Positions 1,198 to 9,326 of a DNA stretch of 32,146 nucleotides are shown here, piece after piece (within the stretch, counting starts at the first letter, position 1; every line of letters begins with the position of its first letter). A program made the translations under genes and the position numbers. The notes under the pieces were generated by a model. The model made no database searches. It was not told the origin of the DNA and saw only the letters and a program-made list of their open reading frames with translations. The DNA is from Candidatus Uhrbacteria bacterium (GTDB lineage Bacteria > Patescibacteriota > Patescibacteriia > UBA9934 > GWF2-40-263). The stretch covers positions 1 through 32,146 of the forward strand of contig JACRJU010000010.1 in assembly GCA_016219925.1 (NCBI GenBank). Direction: 5' to 3'.

Positions 1198-2094
1198 ATG
1201 CCGAACCTCACTCTTGGGCCTCGAGTACGAAAACCTCTACACTTGCACGATCGCGCGCTCAAAAAGCTTGAAGAGCGCGCTCTCACCATGCGCAAGGACC
1301 TCATCACCATGCTCGTCGAAGCGGGCTCCGGCCATAGTGCCGGACCGCTTGGTATGGCCGATATTTTTACGGCTCTATACTTTCATATCATGGTGCATGA
1401 TCCAAAAAAACCAAACTGGGAATTGCGCGATCGACTCATTTTGTCCAACGGACACATCTGTCCGATCCGTTATGTCGCCATGGCACACGCCGGATACTTC
1501 CCCAAATCTGAACTCATGACCCTGCGTAAGTTCGGCACGCGCCTGCAGGGCCACCCCGAGCGCAAAAAATTGCCCGGCGTGGAAACGACATCGGGCCCGC
1601 TTGGTTCGGGTTCGTCCCAAGCCGTCGGGATGGCTTATGTCGGTCTGCTCGACCGCCGGCCTTGGCGGGTTTATTGCGTGATGAGCGATGGAGAACTCGA
1701 AGCAGGGCAAACGTGGGAAGCGATGCTTTTTGCAGGACGCAATAAACTCTACAACTGCACATTCATCATTGATCGCAACAACATTCAGATTGATGGACAG
1801 ACAGAGGAAGTGATGCCACTGGAACCTCTGCAAGCTAAGTTTGAAGCGTTCGGACTCAATGTGATCCGATGCGCCGGCAATTCTATTCGAGAGTTTGTTT
1901 CATCCGTTGAACATGCCCATGGGGTGAGTGAAAAACCCACCGTCATCATCGCCGACACGGTCCCGGGTTACGGTGTAGACTTTATGGAATACGATTTTTC
2001 CTGGCACGGGAAACCCCCCACATTCACCGAAGGAAAAGAAGCGCTCGCGTGGTTGCGAACCCTTGGCGGAAAAATTAAGAGCGAACACGAATGA
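1198..2094 (+). CDS. Transketolase, N-terminal (TPP-binding) subunit
   Basis: SGHSAGPLGMADIFTALYF, GHPERKKLPGVETTSGPLGSG, MSDGELEAGQTWEA motifs; ATG at 1198. Confidence 0.93.
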   Translation: MPNLTLGPRVRKPLHLHDRALKKLEERALTMRKDLITMLVEAGSGHSAGPLGMADIFTALYFHIMVHDPKKPNWELRDRLILSNGHICPIRYVAMAHAGYFPKSELMTLRKFGTRLQGHPERKKLPGVETTSGPLGSGSSQAVGMAYVGLLDRRPWRVYCVMSDGELEAGQTWEAMLFAGRNKLYNCTFIIDRNNIQIDGQTEEVMPLEPLQAKFEAFGLNVIRCAGNSIREFVSSVEHAHGVSEKPTVIIADTVPGYGVDFMEYDFSWHGKPPTFTEGKEALAWLRTLGGKIKSEHE

Positions 2095-2095
2095 T

Positions 2096-3109
2096 ATGAC
2101 ACCGCGACGAACACAAACAGGCATCAACCACGAAGCGTATCTCGTACGCCATCTGTTTGATCCAGATAAACTCAAACAAATCCCAACACGAAACGGCTAC
2201 GGAGAAGGTCTCGTTGAAGCAGGCAAAAAGGATAAAAATATCATGGTGCTCTGCGCCGACCTCACCGAATCCACCCGATCGCTCGCGTTCAAAGAGGCCT
2301 TTCCGGATCGCTTCGTACAACTTGGCGTTTCCGAGCAGTCTATGGCTTCGATCGCGGCGGGCATGGCGATCACTGGCAAGGTGCCGTTTATCTCAAGCTA
2401 CGCGTGTTTTTCTCCCGGCCGCAACTGGGAGCAGATCCGAACAACAGTTGCCCTTCAAAACAGCAACGTCAAGATCGCTGGCGCTCATGCGGGTGTTTCC
2501 GTTGGGCCAGACGGCGCGACTCACCAGATGATCGAAGACATCGCGATCATGCGGGTGATGCCCAACATGCGCGTAATCGTTCCTTGTGACTCGGTCGAAA
2601 CAAAAAAAGCGACTCTTGCCATAAGTGCCGCAGTCGGCCCGTGCTATTTTCGATTCGCCAGGGAAAAATCCCCGGTCTTCACGACCGACAAAACCCCGTT
2701 CAAAATAGGACACGCGGAAACGTATCGCTTCGGCGCGGATGTGACGATCATCGGAACTGGCCCATTGTTATACGAAGCGCTGTTGGCCGCACAAGTCTTG
2801 TCCGTTGATCACGGCATTGAAGCGCGCATCATCAATCTGCACACCATCAAGCCACTCGATGAAAAAACGATCGTCAAAGCGGCAAAAGAAACCGGGGCGA
2901 TTGTGACGGTCGAGGAAGCCCAAGCGGCCGGAGGTCTTGGAGGCGTCGTGGCCGAAACACTCGCCCTGCACACCCCGGTTCCAATGGAACGCATCGGCGT
3001 GCAAGACCGATTTGGAGAGTCTGGAGAGCCTCGCGAATTGCTCGAAAACCTGGGTTTGACAGCTCCATCTATCATTCAAGCCGTCCTAACCGTTCTTAAA
3101 CGTAAGTGA
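2096..3109 (+). CDS. Transketolase, C-terminal subunit
   Basis: VLCADLTESTRSLAFKEAFPDRFVQLGVSEQSMASIAAGMA; begins 2 nt after the N-subunit stop. Confidence 0.93.
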   Translation: MTPRRTQTGINHEAYLVRHLFDPDKLKQIPTRNGYGEGLVEAGKKDKNIMVLCADLTESTRSLAFKEAFPDRFVQLGVSEQSMASIAAGMAITGKVPFISSYACFSPGRNWEQIRTTVALQNSNVKIAGAHAGVSVGPDGATHQMIEDIAIMRVMPNMRVIVPCDSVETKKATLAISAAVGPCYFRFAREKSPVFTTDKTPFKIGHAETYRFGADVTIIGTGPLLYEALLAAQVLSVDHGIEARIINLHTIKPLDEKTIVKAAKETGAIVTVEEAQAAGGLGGVVAETLALHTPVPMERIGVQDRFGESGEPRELLENLGLTAPSIIQAVLTVLKRK

Positions 3110-3115
3110 TCCCCT

Positions 3116-4087
3116 ATGTTTGATCTCATCACCATCGGCGACATTAAACTCGACGCCTTCATTTCGCTTGATCGGTGTAAAGATAAGTGCGACTTGCGTT
3201 TAAAAAAAATCGAGTTTGCTTTCGGGGAAAAAATCTCCGTGGATTTGCTGTCCCAACAAATCGCCGGCTCGGCGCCAAATGTCGCCACCGCGTTAAGCCG
3301 AATGGGAAAGCATACCGCAATCATCAGCCACATGGGAGACGACCAAACCCGTGATCACGCGATGGATATCTTAAAAAAAGAACAGGTAGAAACAGATTTC
3401 GTAGCGTCCTACCGTCGGACTTCGAGCGCTTATTCAACGGTTCTTTCCTTGCAAGGAGAAAAAACTATTCTCGTTTCTTATCTTCATAAAATTCTCAAAC
3501 TCCCCCACCCTTTTCCAAAAACCAAATGGATCTATTTGTGCGAAATGGGAAATGCTTATGAAAAAACTTATCGGCAACTTCTGCGCGAACTCAAAAAAGA
3601 TCACGTTTTGCTCGGGTACAATCCGGGGAATGAGCAGATCCGCGATCGCAAACCGGAATTATTCGACATGATCGCCCGCGCCAATGTGCTTTTTGTCAAC
3701 GTCGAGGAGGCCCAGCGCATTGTGGGTAACACGCGGCTCAAGGTGAAACATCTCGCCGAAGCGCTCTTTGCCATGGGCCCGTCCGAAGTCGTCATTACGG
3801 ATGGAAAAAACGGTTCCTACGGATATAACGGGACGTGTCTTTTTTTCTGCCCGGTCTTTCCGGGAGAACGGATTGAATCAACGGGCGCTGGCGACTCCTT
3901 TGCCTCCGCCTATATTGGCGCCAACATGAACGGAGGGTCCATGCAAGAAGCCCTGCGCTGGGGATCGGTCAACGCGGCATCTGTCGTGCACGAGATCGGG
4001 CCGACCCAAGGACTCCTCACACAAAAACAAATCCAGAAACGTCTACGGACCGCAACGGATTTCACTGTTTCAATGATCGCTGAATAA
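3116..4087 (+). CDS. PfkB-family carbohydrate kinase (copy 1)
   Basis: N-terminal FDLITIGDIKLDAF and C-terminal STGAGDSFASAYI PfkB signature. Confidence 0.9.
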   Translation: MFDLITIGDIKLDAFISLDRCKDKCDLRLKKIEFAFGEKISVDLLSQQIAGSAPNVATALSRMGKHTAIISHMGDDQTRDHAMDILKKEQVETDFVASYRRTSSAYSTVLSLQGEKTILVSYLHKILKLPHPFPKTKWIYLCEMGNAYEKTYRQLLRELKKDHVLLGYNPGNEQIRDRKPELFDMIARANVLFVNVEEAQRIVGNTRLKVKHLAEALFAMGPSEVVITDGKNGSYGYNGTCLFFCPVFPGERIESTGAGDSFASAYIGANMNGGSMQEALRWGSVNAASVVHEIGPTQGLLTQKQIQKRLRTATDFTVSMIAE

Positions 4088-5067
4088 TTTTTGTGCGTAG
4101 GGTGTGACCCTGACAATGCTTCAACAAGCCGAAATAGGATTGGATGTTCGAGCAGTCAACTCGCCTCAACATCCTCCGCTTTGTCTTTGTCCGAAGCACA
4201 CGGTAATGCGGAAGGGTCACGTAACCCAAAAAATCTATCCCTTGCCTAAGTTTACGAATCTCCACTTTATTTGGATGGAGCCTAAGCCGCCGTTCATGCC
4301 ACAGCCACTGTTCGATGATTGGAACAAGTAAAGATAACTTTTGATGGTCGGAATCAAGAATCACCGCGTCATCGGTATACCGAATATAATACGGGATCCT
4401 AAGCTCATCTTTGATAAAATGATCAAATGCATCCAAGTAGACGTTTGCAAATAGTTGGGAGGTTAAATTGCCGATGGGAAGCCCTGTCGGTTGTTTTGTT
4501 TCAATTAACGACCCCCCCCCCGACGGCGTTTTGTCTTGAAAAGCTTGAGACAACTTCTTGTAGCAAGTCGATTACTCCCTGAGCTTGTCGAAGGGCTAAT
4601 CGACTTCTTAAAACATTCAACAAAATCTCGTGATCCACCGAATCAAAAAATTTCTTGATATCGAACTTCAACGCCCAACAAGGTTTCTGATAATTACGAC
4701 TTACTTTCCGAGCAAACATCTCAAGACGATCAACGGCGGCGTGTGTTCCTTTTCCAATCCGACAAGAATAGCTATCAAAAATAAATGAACGATCTAACAC
4801 CGGATAAAGAACACGATAAATCGCATGATGAACAAGACGATCACGCACAGTTGCTTTGTGAATGATGCGGTGCTTGGGATCAAAAATGTGGAACCGCTGA
4901 TAGGAACCGTGTCTGTAACGACCGCATCGCAAATCATCGTACAACTGAAAAAGATAATCCTCGAGATCGCGTTCGAACTCCTGAACATCTGCTCTGCCAC
5001 GCTTCCCGCGACGAAACTCGTACCAGGCAGAAAAGAGATTCTCTAAACTGACTATTTGTTCAAACAT
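4062..5067 (-). pseudogene. DGR-type reverse transcriptase, frameshifted at a G10 (minus strand) homopolymer
   Basis: ORFs 4501-5067 and 4062-4553 join into one RT: MFEQIVSLENLFSAWYEFRRGKRGR..., DPKHRIIHKATVRDRLVHHAIYRVLYP, FDSYSCRIGKGTHAAV, FDIKKFFDSVDHEILL, GLPIGNLTSQLFANVYL, YYIRYTDDAVIL, GIDFLGYV. IGNLTSQ fits the [LIV]GxxxSQ pattern of DGR RTs. Confidence 0.88.
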
Positions 5068-5357
5068 ATTGGTATCTCAATCTTCGCAATATCCCAAAGC
5101 GTGATCGATTTACATGGGGCGAACACTGTGAAAATTTAGCTCTGAATCTTCTGAAGATAATCACCAATGCTCCATACCTGTCTCGAAACCAAAAACAAAT
5201 TGAAATTTTTACAGCCAGTCAACTCGTTGATCAACTCAAAGTATTTTTACGGCTTGGACATGACCTTCATATTCTGCCAACAAAACATAGTATTCCACGA
5301 CAAGCCGACTTGCAAGAAATCGGGCGCATGCTTGGTGGTTGGATAAAAACATTTTGA
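5052..5357 (+). pseudogene. Avd-like four-helix-bundle DGR accessory protein, 5'-truncated, opposite strand to RT
   Basis: Open frame without start codon: LFVQTYWYLNLRNIPKRDRFTWGEHCENLALNLLKIITNAPYLSRNQKQIEIFTASQLVDQLKVFLRLGHDLHILPTKHSIPRQADLQEIGRMLGGWIKTF*; resembles the C-terminal part of Avd-like proteins (xPKRDRFTxGEkCE, EIGRMLGGWIK). Confidence 0.75.
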
Positions 5358-6252
5358 GAACAGCCAGGACGCGGAAAGCAATGTTGTCGTTCGGATTGTC
5401 GTGCCAGTTCCTGTTCACGTCCGCAAGACCACCAAGGTCACGGTAACCGACGACGAGGAAATAGCCAGCGTCGTACGAGTTGAGGCACCCCTCCCAGGAG
5501 TTGGTGGAGCCGAGGTCCGGCAGGCTCATGTTCCTGTTGACGTTCAGCCACAGGAACAGGTTGCCGATCAGGTTCCACTCCTCGGAGGTCGGCAGGCGAA
5601 GAGCGCGATTGGGGAGGCCGAAGAGCTTCACCGCCCTGGGCAGGATCGTCGCGGTCAGATGATCCCATGAGATCTTGAAGCGCGTCGTGATCTGAAGATC
5701 CTGACCGAGCAGGTCACCCTCGTAGCCCTTGGGGTCTCCCCAGTTGGGCTTCGCGATCATCTCGATGAGAACCCACCGACCGGGAAGAGGCTTGTGCTCG
5801 ATCTTGCTTCCATCGATGTGACGACCCCAGGCAGGCTTCACGAAGCTGTCAGGATAGTCGTTCTCGGTGATGGAGGGCAGGAAGACGAGCAGGAGCCTGT
5901 AGCGTTCGATCGCTTTCCTCGTCTTGCCCTTGATCTTGGGAACGGACGGGATGTTGATCTTGCGGCCGAGGATTGCCTCCCAGCACTGCTCCCAGAAGGC
6001 GCGCGGATCGATGTCGTAGGCGGCCCAGCCGTCGGTCGGTTCCGTCGCAGTGGGACGCGTGCGCTCGTTCACCTGCTCAGCAAGCCAGTTAGCGAGCACA
6101 TCCGGCGTCAACTTCCCCTGAGCGAAGAGTTCGCCCAGAGTGTTCGTGACCGTGTGATGGTCGAGCAGACCGTTGAGACCCGCGGAGGTGAAGTGAAGAC
6201 GGTGCTCGAGAACCTTCTCGAGCCAGGAAGGCAATGGCATCAACTGATTCAT
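5236..6252 (-). CDS. DGR target-like protein with C-terminal C-type-lectin-like variable domain
   Basis: RLPTSEEWNLIGNLFLWLN...PDLGSTNSWEGCLNSYDAGYFLVVGYRDLGGLADVNRNWHDNPNDNIAFRVLAVL; ATG at 6252 preceded by GGTGGGAGATGACAAG. Confidence 0.75.
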   Translation of the reverse strand: MNQLMPLPSWLEKVLEHRLHFTSAGLNGLLDHHTVTNTLGELFAQGKLTPDVLANWLAEQVNERTRPTATEPTDGWAAYDIDPRAFWEQCWEAILGRKINIPSVPKIKGKTRKAIERYRLLLVFLPSITENDYPDSFVKPAWGRHIDGSKIEHKPLPGRWVLIEMIAKPNWGDPKGYEGDLLGQDLQITTRFKISWDHLTATILPRAVKLFGLPNRALRLPTSEEWNLIGNLFLWLNVNRNMSLPDLGSTNSWEGCLNSYDAGYFLVVGYRDLGGLADVNRNWHDNPNDNIAFRVLAVLKMFLSNHQACARFLASRLVVEYYVLLAEYEGHVQAVKIL

Positions 6253-6383
6253 CTTGTCATCTCCCACCTTGCTCTTCAGAACCGCTTCACCACTAGTGAC
6301 TCGATCCTGACATTCCAAGGTGCAAGTTGTGCACGGTTCCGTCGTGCGGCGGGCCACAGGCAAGGTGCCTGATGAACTGAAAT

Positions 6384-6412
6384 AAGATACAGAAATATAG
6401 CCAAAAAGTCAA
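6384..6412 (-). promoter_or_regulatory. Sigma70-like promoter for the DGR target gene
   Basis: Minus strand TTGACT-17 nt-TATCTT; about 125-nt leader to ATG 6252. Confidence 0.6.
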
Positions 6413-6433
6413 TAGACCGATATACTTCGTAAT

Positions 6434-7357
6434 ATGCTCACCTCCCTTTCTTCCATTCTCACAAAAGCCCAGCGCGGCCGTTATGCGGTCGGTGCTTTTA
6501 ACATCAACAACCTGGAAACACTCCAAGCGGTCATGGATGCCGCACAGGCCGAGCGCTCGCCGGTCATTGTGCAAACCTCCGAGGGGGCGATCGACTATGC
6601 GGGGATGGACGAACTCGCCGCGCTCGTTCACTTAGCCGCCAAGCGCACGAGCCGGCCGGTCGTTTTCCATCTTGACCATGGGAAAAATTACGACCTTGTG
6701 GTCAGAGCGATTATAAGCGGTTTCTACACGAGCGTGATGTTTGACGGATCTTCCCTCCCCTATAAGGAAAACGTACGCCGCACCAAAAAACTCGTCGAGA
6801 TGGCACACAAAAAAGGGATAAGCGTGGAAGCAGAACTCGGGCTTATCGCCGGCAAAGAAGATTTCGTCTCCGTCGCCGAACATGAAGCGGCCATGACCCA
6901 ACCGGCGCAGGCGGCTGACTTTATCAAACAAACGGGATGCGATGCTCTTGCGGTTGCGATCGGCACGCGTCACGGGGCTTTCAAAATGAAAACAGAATCC
7001 ACTCTCGACTTTGAACGTCTCAAACAAATTGCCGAAGCGGTCAGTGTTCCACTTGTCCTTCACGGCGCCTCGGGAGTTCCCTCACGCATCAAAACCCTCT
7101 GTACAAAATACGGCTGTGAGATCGCTTCGGCTAAAGGGATCCCCGATATTCAAATTAAAAAAGCCGTGTCGCTTGGAATTTGCAAAGTGAACATTGATAC
7201 CGATTTAAGAATTGCCTTTGACGCCGGTATTCGAAAATTTTTGAAAGAAAAGCCTGGGGTCATTGATCCGCGCGAAATTTTGAAACCTGCCAAAGCCCTC
7301 ATCACACAGGTCGCCCGCCACAAAATGAAACTGTTTGGATCATCAGGAAAAGCTTAG
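6434..7357 (+). CDS. fba: Class II fructose-bisphosphate (ketose-bisphosphate) aldolase
   Basis: VGAFNINNLETLQAV, VVFHLDHGKNYDLV, VSVEAELGLIAGKED, LVLHGASGVP, GICKVNIDTDLR. Confidence 0.93.
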   Translation: MLTSLSSILTKAQRGRYAVGAFNINNLETLQAVMDAAQAERSPVIVQTSEGAIDYAGMDELAALVHLAAKRTSRPVVFHLDHGKNYDLVVRAIISGFYTSVMFDGSSLPYKENVRRTKKLVEMAHKKGISVEAELGLIAGKEDFVSVAEHEAAMTQPAQAADFIKQTGCDALAVAIGTRHGAFKMKTESTLDFERLKQIAEAVSVPLVLHGASGVPSRIKTLCTKYGCEIASAKGIPDIQIKKAVSLGICKVNIDTDLRIAFDAGIRKFLKEKPGVIDPREILKPAKALITQVARHKMKLFGSSGKA

Positions 7358-7371
7358 ATTTGTATCCCCCT

Positions 7372-8343
7372 ATGTTTGACATCATTACCATCGGAGGTGC
7401 CACGCGAGACGTCTTTTTGGTTTCCGACAAATTTCTCTCCATTCGATCCAAAAAAATTCCAAGCGGAGTTGGTGAATGTGTGGCGCTTGGGAGCAAAATC
7501 GAAGTGGACCAACTCGTTTTAACGACCGGCGGCGGGGCAACAAACGCGGCCGCGACATTTGCTTCTCTTGGTTTCCATACCGCAACCATGACGCGCATTG
7601 GGGACGACTCGACCGGAAAAGACGTCATCGATGATTTGAGTGCTTTCGGTGTTAGCACCCATTTTGTTCGGATGATAAAAGGCGGACAAACCGGCTATTC
7701 GGTTTTGCTCACCATGAGGGACGGCGAACGAACGATTTTGACGTTTCGTGGAGTCTCTTCACAGTTCGAACAAAAAGATATCCATTGGGGTGGTTGCGAA
7801 CAAACAAAGTGGATCTATCTGACATCGCTTGGAGGGAATCTCGCCTTATCAAAAAAAGTGATCGAAAACGCTCGTCGGTGCAACATTAAGGTGGCATGGA
7901 ATCCTGGAAAAGGAGAATTGAAATCCGGCATGAAATCGTTTTTAGCTCTTCTGCCGATGATCGATATTCTGACTATGAATCTTGAAGAGGCGAAACTGTT
8001 GACGGGGAAAAAACACGTGACTGGAATATTCAAAATGTTACAGAGCGACGGCAAAATTCGTCTCATCACAGATGGCACAAACGGATCGCATGTCTGGCGC
8101 GATGGGTGGATGGCACATGCTGGCACGACCGGAGTAAAAGCCGTGTCGCGCACGGGAGCCGGCGACGCGTTTGGATCTGGATTTGTCGCGGGATTTATTA
8201 AAAGAGAGGATATCAGATACGCGCTCGCCATCGGTACCTTAAATGCAGAGTCTGTCGTGCAACAATTTGGCCCAAAACTCGGTATCTTAAAAAAATGGCC
8301 TGGCACGCTAACGACCAAAAAAATCAAAATTCAAACCTTATGA
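7372..8343 (+). CDS. PfkB-family carbohydrate kinase (copy 2)
   Basis: MFDIITIGGATRDVFL; GGGATNAAATFASLG; SRTGAGDAFGSGFVAG. Confidence 0.9.
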   Translation: MFDIITIGGATRDVFLVSDKFLSIRSKKIPSGVGECVALGSKIEVDQLVLTTGGGATNAAATFASLGFHTATMTRIGDDSTGKDVIDDLSAFGVSTHFVRMIKGGQTGYSVLLTMRDGERTILTFRGVSSQFEQKDIHWGGCEQTKWIYLTSLGGNLALSKKVIENARRCNIKVAWNPGKGELKSGMKSFLALLPMIDILTMNLEEAKLLTGKKHVTGIFKMLQSDGKIRLITDGTNGSHVWRDGWMAHAGTTGVKAVSRTGAGDAFGSGFVAGFIKREDIRYALAIGTLNAESVVQQFGPKLGILKKWPGTLTTKKIKIQTL

Positions 8344-9326
8344 GTTATGCTGTCTTCGTCACGCGCGATATCCCAGATCGGGGACTTCAGATGCTTCGCG
8401 CAAACAAAAAAATCAAACTCGACATTTATGAAAAAGACGAACAGATCCCGCGCAAAGAACTGTTGCGACGAGTAAAAGGCGCGGACATCATCCTTTCCAT
8501 TTTAACGGAACGAATGGATAAAGAAGTGTTCGATGTGGCCGGAACTCAACTCAAAATGATCGCCAACTACGCGGTCGGCTTTGATAATGTGGATCTTGCG
8601 GAAGCAAAACGTCGAGGACTTGTGGTCACAAACACTCCTGGAGATCTCATTTCCGAATCGGTCGCCGAGCATACGATCGCGCTCATGTTCGCGCTCGCAC
8701 ACCGGGTCTGCGAAGGCGATCGTTATACGCGCGCAGGAAAATATAAAGCGTGGGGACCAAAACTCCTCCTGGGAACAGACTTCTACGGCAAAACGGTTGG
8801 AATTATCGGAAGTGGCCGAATTGGAGCTGGTGTTGTCAGACGTCTCCATGACGGCTTCAATATGAAAATTGTCTACAATGACGTGAAACGAAATAAAGAG
8901 CTTGAACTGAAAACCGGCGCCAAATACAGAACACTCGAACAACTTCTCAAAGAATCTGACTTTGTATCTGTGCATGTTCCTTTGCTTGCTTCAACGAGAC
9001 ATCTCATTGGCACAAAAGAACTCAAGCTCATGAAAAAAACCGCGTTTCTTATTAACACGGCGCGCGGACCGATCATCGATGAAAAAGCCCTCTTGCAAGC
9101 GCTTGCAAAAAAAGAAATCGCCGGAGCCGGACTTGATGTGTACGAATGCGAGCCCCTTATTGATTGCGATCCAAAGGACAATTTAGACTTACGAAAAATG
9201 GACAATGTCGTTCTCACTCCACACACCGCCTCGGCTATAGAAGCTACACGTCAACAAATGAGCGAAATCGCTGCAAAAAATATCCTCGCGTTCATCGTCG
9301 GCAAAACGCCCCCAAATATTATTTAA
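8340..9326 (+). CDS. D-isomer-specific 2-hydroxyacid dehydrogenase (glyoxylate/hydroxypyruvate reductase-like)
   Basis: GKTVGIIGSGRIGAGVVRRL nucleotide-binding motif, INTARGPIIDEKAL, LTPHTASA; ATGA overlap with the upstream stop. Confidence 0.93.
   Translation: MSYAVFVTRDIPDRGLQMLRANKKIKLDIYEKDEQIPRKELLRRVKGADIILSILTERMDKEVFDVAGTQLKMIANYAVGFDNVDLAEAKRRGLVVTNTPGDLISESVAEHTIALMFALAHRVCEGDRYTRAGKYKAWGPKLLLGTDFYGKTVGIIGSGRIGAGVVRRLHDGFNMKIVYNDVKRNKELELKTGAKYRTLEQLLKESDFVSVHVPLLASTRHLIGTKELKLMKKTAFLINTARGPIIDEKALLQALAKKEIAGAGLDVYECEPLIDCDPKDNLDLRKMDNVVLTPHTASAIEATRQQMSEIAAKNILAFIVGKTPPNII

Follow-up and report, generated by a model that had tools for sequence, protein, structure and literature searches.

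The DGR cassette and its genomic context

Is a diversity-generating retroelement (DGR) with a frameshifted RT an element in decay, or one whose reading frame is under control? The question is raised by a locus of a Candidatus Uhrbacteria genome, contained in a stretch of 32,146 nucleotides (the whole of which is referred to as the window). The window is contig C6 of an 874-kb genome in 15 contigs. The DGR cassette extends from about 4100 to 6252 and consists of an RT (minus strand), an Avd remnant (plus strand) and a target gene (minus strand). The three parts adjoin one another, as a first-pass annotation of the sequence had stated. That annotation described the cassette as a DGR caught mid-decay.

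The RT is divided into two portions. The N-terminal half (4501..5067, minus strand) begins with an ATG at 5067 and matches RVT_1 positions 8–94. The C-terminal half (4062..4553, minus strand) contains the GLPIGNLTSQ and YTDD motifs, matches RVT_1 positions 112–203 and can be aligned to relatives. The second half is out of frame with the first (ORFs 4553–4062 and 5067–4501), and the frame is lost at a homopolymer of ten G residues (G10, 4512..4521 on the minus strand; C10 on the plus strand). The YxDD-bearing RT of a functional DGR is thus represented here by its motifs in a frame split at G10. The last ~15 residues of the RT extend into the 3' end of a kinase gene. Within the RT, at 4567–4606, there is a short in-frame repeat resembling a palindrome, CTTCGACAAGCTCAGGG (peptide LRQAQG); this stretch matches several further places in two related genomes (G006 and G032) and looks like a dispersed repeat.

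The Avd remnant (5070..5357, plus strand) matches the bAvd family (PF22296) from position 12 to 106/107 (E=1.7e-14), and lacks its N-terminus and start codon. It is otherwise open up to its own TGA, ending at about 5357, and shares 53–54% identity with the Avds of three related loci (L025, L028 and L033). The target gene body (5356..6252, minus strand) begins with an ATG at 6252 and includes 299 codons ahead of a junction described below. The target is 66–67% identical to that of G032 and about 30–48% identical to those of other relatives, and a profile search found no family match for it in Pfam or NCBIfam. The GC content is about 60% in the target gene body (5366–6370) against 42–46% across RT and Avd, a difference that points to a separate origin or to a constraint on composition.

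The cassette interrupts a conserved operon with the order transketolase, kinase 1, fba, kinase 2, dehydrogenase. The junction of this operon occupied by a DGR cassette, or by a target on its own, varies from genus to genus (window 2063–9326; L024, L026, L031, L056 and L058). The insertion lies between kinase 1 and fba in the window, upstream of transketolase in G032, after fba in G012, and between kinase 2 and dehydrogenase in G006 and G018. In a genome of the same genus (G001), kinase 1 and fba are separated by just a few bp with no insert. In the G024 copy of this operon, kinase 2 and fba are separated by about 4.1 kb of other sequence (L057, 2450–6564). Two target homologues (L026, 5107–6033; L031, 5907–6809) have no RT, Avd or TR in the ~11–13 kb around each, and may be orphans or depend on a DGR located elsewhere.

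A second DGR and the layout of related loci

A second DGR is present on contig C13 of the same genome (L004). It has a VR in a 986-aa AAA protein; beyond this come a divergent Avd, an RT of 322 aa that is intact, and a template repeat (TR). The TR and VR differ at 18 positions over 128 bp, and 18/18 differences fall at TR adenines, so that RT, Avd, target and a TR/VR pair with A-specific mismatches are all found together. The Avd is intact downstream of a C10 tract and is scored as out of frame. Since Avd lies opposite to RT in this intact element, a divergent Avd is normal in this genome.

The same orientation is typical of related loci. The cassette relatives (two in G031, and one each in G023, G032 and G007) share the order target (minus), TR (minus), Avd (plus), RT (minus), and in the four that could be scored nearly all TR–VR mismatches are at A (15/16, 17/18, 21/22 and 15/16). 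Avd is divergent in about 90 of the 99 RT loci identified by motif in 193 genomes of the class. In three of the cassette relatives the RT and Avd start codons overlap head to head in a CATATG palindrome. The first-pass annotation had regarded the Avd as inverted. Comparison with related genomes indicates the opposite, as a divergent Avd is the intact order; inversion is ruled out by the layout of the relatives together with the second DGR. Another locus (L190) has a second copy of a 618-bp stretch 481 bp away; the copies differ by 12 mismatches, 12/12 at A, and may be a tandem duplication spanning VR and TR.

Loss of the template repeat and the Avd start

The absence of an Avd start codon was correctly noted in the first-pass annotation. 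Where L025, L028 and L033 have CATATG, the window has the scar CATAT-TGG (5065..5070, plus strand). Approximately 47 bp, including the ATG and the first residues of Avd, are deleted at 5069/5070, while the ATG of the RT survives.

The annotation had also reported that no template repeat was visible in the flanking spacers, and this holds for the wider genome. An adenine-tolerant search of the window and of 15 kb around the second DGR gave only chance-level matches to the window VR. Comparison of this VR with the genome (93% complete) by blastn returned, besides itself, just three short chance matches of 14–27 bases. The TR on C13 was considered as a possible template for the window VR and was ruled out, as it shows no match.

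What remains in the window is a single repeat (5476–5356, minus strand) at the target C-terminus, with two dissimilar halves. Conserved TR adenines, defined as columns with A in each of three relatives' TRs, are kept at 3/9 positions in the 5' half, which is VR-like, and at 12/12 in the 3' half, which is TR-like. The true VRs of G031 and G023 keep 9/24 of the conserved adenines in the 3' half versus 12/12 in the window (Fisher p=2.6e-4). The 3' flank of the repeat is that of a TR (the end of Avd), unlike the flank of a VR (the target stop); in the intact relatives the stop codon of the target is located just after the VR. On the evidence of these alignments the repeat is a VR/TR chimera with a crossover at about 5435–5415, and the TR and the target stop appear to have been lost through VR × TR recombination. 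As VR and TR lie about 374–531 bp apart in the relatives, one direct-repeat recombination would remove the target stop, the spacer and the TR. Such an event would delete about 0.4–0.5 kb (with the 5' half of the TR) and leave one chimeric repeat; with the separate ~47-bp deletion that took the Avd start codon, the element would have died in at least two steps.

Several elements of the original description acquire a different meaning in this context. The target ORF does run antisense through Avd, reaching 5236, but this stretch (5236..5355, minus strand) is an accidental read-through resulting from the lost stop codon rather than an independent feature. The proposal that an inversion or deletion took both the TR and the Avd N-terminus survives only with respect to the ~47-bp deletion, since there is no inversion and the TR was lost separately. 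The conclusion that the variable domain is frozen stands: with the TR and the Avd start gone, the DGR is disabled. Both lesions, the deletion at the Avd start and the VR × TR recombination, are real, although at 5356–5476 a fusion of the repeats or an assembly jump could give identical sequence. The window illustrates one way in which a DGR dies, with two repeats recombining and the template vanishing into the target.

A poly-G tract inside the RT

The G10 run in the window RT occupies a site common to its DGR lineage. In nine loci (the window and eight relatives) a run of 9–12 G residues lies just ahead of GLPIGNLTSQ. It is G10 in both G031 cassettes and in G012, G11 in G040 and L122, G9 in G007 and G032, and G12 in G023. 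Of eight loci scored, the RT is in frame in two (G032 and G023) and out of frame in six (the window and five others). Both G031 cassettes have an out-of-frame RT, and their VRs are nevertheless diversified. Between the C-terminal RT halves of out-of-frame copies, dN/dS is 0.07–0.13. The RT of the window is frameshifted in the sense that it occupies two frames, both of which match RVT_1. However, because the tract site is shared with relatives that have diversified VRs, an OFF phase is a better reading of the G10 frameshift than decay. The first-pass description is mostly accurate, and its account of decay half so: the TR and the Avd start are gone, but the RT frameshift does not belong with these lesions.

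Runs of this kind are rare in the genome. Only four G/C runs of at least nine occur in its 874 kb, and two of these fall within its two DGRs (the window RT and the Avd of the other DGR). Of the remaining two, one lies where an mltG-like ORF adjoins an aldehyde-dehydrogenase ORF and one within a DHH-type ORF, names that are presumed from reading of the sequence. The former (L065, G000:C3:43894–43903) is a C10/G10 run, with the two ORFs in different frames on either side, and may be a further tract of variable length.

A poly-C tract at the Avd start across the class

Across the class the tract is found most often at the start of Avd. A G/C run of at least eight occurs near the RT in 69/99 loci, with no tract in about 30%. 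In 56 of the 69 tract loci it is a run of 8–13 C residues directly after the ATG at the Avd start. The ATG is in frame with the rest of Avd in 18 of these 56 and out of frame in 38, matching the one-third expected from random phase (binomial p=1). Among Avds that lack the tract, the ATG is in frame in 28/33 cases (Fisher p=8e-7 versus tract Avds). The out-of-frame Avds are otherwise complete in 36/38 cases, and pairs of them show dN/dS values of 0–0.17; they are under purifying selection. The N-termini ahead of the tract (MTQL, MSQL and MIEQ types) are alike in in-frame and out-of-frame Avds, and the distance from start to tract varies.

A set of public genomes that partly overlaps the class set includes 24 tract Avds, 17 out of frame and 7 in frame. 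The out-of-frame cassettes in this set with a TR–VR pair show A-specific mismatches (e.g. 18/18, 16/16, 21/21 and 24/24). A stricter pattern, requiring the tract together with the RT N-terminus, was present in 26/380 genomes across the phylum, compared to 0 for the reversed control and 107 for the RT motif. No tract was seen in ~10 related RT loci outside Patescibacteria.

Read on the RT strand, the tract of the Avd-type loci is poly-G and lies shortly upstream of the RT start. There is no ATG between the tract and the conserved RT N-terminus in 29/54 tract loci, and the RT start is often uncertain. In these loci the tract may thus act on RT as well, or as a leader element.

Alternative explanations

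That the whole locus is a DGR in mid-decay, with an inversion or deletion having taken TR and Avd N-terminus and the RT frameshift being a pseudogene mutation, agrees with the genuine absence of both parts and with an RT that is out of frame. It is nonetheless improbable, as Avd is divergent in intact DGRs including that of the same genome, the frameshift falls in a tract common to DGRs with diversified VRs, and the VR × TR fusion accounts for the missing TR. A short-read assembly that jumped from VR to TR and miscounted a homopolymer would instead imply an intact locus in reality. Near-identical blocks are common to VR and TR, homopolymers are error-prone, and VRs do break assemblies, as in G032, where contig ends fall exactly within the VR. 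However, the deletion at the Avd start is outside any repeat, the tract recurs in numerous genomes produced by different projects with different assemblers, and mis-assembly alone would not put long G/C runs at a single position in a single gene pair. An artefact therefore seems rather unlikely.

The main rival to phase variation is programmed frameshifting or transcriptional slippage, whereby the tract would yield some in-frame Avd or RT at any length with no genetic switch. G/C runs of at least nine can cause polymerase slippage, and the past activity evident in out-of-frame DGRs would be readily accommodated. The lengths are not fixed at one offset, though; the in-frame share is one-third, as phase drift predicts, and the start-to-tract distance varies too. 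On balance slippage is considered an unlikely explanation. Still more doubtful is a structural or regulatory role in which poly-G in the RT leader affects ribosome binding or forms a G-quadruplex, the effect on the Avd frame being incidental. While the position of the Avd-type tract on the RT strand is suggestive in this respect, the clade of the window has its tract within the core of the RT, well away from any start codon, and an altered reading frame is the only consequence that the two share.

Proposed phase variation and comparison with known systems

In other bacteria, genes are known to be switched by slipped-strand changes in G/C tracts. Several features of the DGR tracts are those of phase-variable genes: a long mononucleotide tract lies in a coding region and is rare elsewhere in the genome; its length (8–13) and frame (Avd 18 in and 38 out, RT 2 in and 6 out) vary in a comparison made between species, with one genome per species; and the out-of-frame genes remain under selection in both Avd and RT. 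Judged from sequence, the window probably holds a wrecked Patescibacterial DGR, disabled by VR × TR loss and the Avd-start deletion, whose tract is of a kind that controls DGR mutagenesis by phase variation. As the tract gains or loses residues by strand slippage, RT or Avd, and hence mutagenesis, would be switched randomly and reversibly. The place of the tract differs by clade (Avd start or RT core), and the common outcome would be loss of frame in an essential component. Changes in tract length within populations, and their setting of DGR activity, would follow from this model. The cassette of the window itself is a wreck of this proposed kind and not a working member, dead for reasons other than its tract.

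With somewhat more reserve, it appears likely that Patescibacteria widely hold DGRs under such a heritable, random on/off switch in Avd or RT, with about one-third of lineages able to mutate the target at any one time and the rest frozen on a successful variant. In BPP-1, loss of Avd or RT abolishes DGR activity (PMC12875486), and both are required (PMC6642488), so that either component out of frame should silence mutagenesis. A 2026 paper (PMC12875486) treats the natural regulation of DGR activity as an open question. If the proposal is true, a contingency tract in the mutator would answer it simply for much of the phylum. Roux et al. 2021 (PMC8144416) report below-average activity for Patescibacterial DGR clade 2, as a switch that is mostly off would predict; the tract could thus explain the low activity measured for this clade. 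It would also be a warning against dismissing 'frameshifted' RT and Avd genes of these genomes as pseudogenes or errors of sequencing. Both poly-G/C phase variation and DGRs in Patescibacteria have been described before. A search for literature linking DGRs to phase variation, homopolymers, slippage or contingency loci, with subscription papers and most preprints outside its coverage, found no report of the tract, and within the literature searched the combination appears new.

The loci resemble the BPP-1 type of DGR in their RT and bAvd homologues and in the A-specific TR/VR mismatches of the intact relatives and of the second DGR. They differ in that Avd is divergent from RT and target and in the homopolymer tract in RT or Avd; the window copy in addition lacks TR and Avd start. 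With Patescibacterial clade 2 (PMC8144416) they share a cellular setting in CPR genomes and targets without recognised domains, a likeness drawn from these features. The main text of that paper mentions no homopolymer tract or frameshift, and low activity is given there without a tract as its cause. The tract itself is most like the poly-G/C contingency loci of Campylobacter, Bordetella and other bacteria (e.g. PMC4965091, PMC1891110), where a homopolymer of 8–13 G/C residues in coding sequence likewise varies in length and puts the frame on or off. However, the gene switched here is a component of a mutator, the Avd or RT of a DGR, and the variation in length is known between species.
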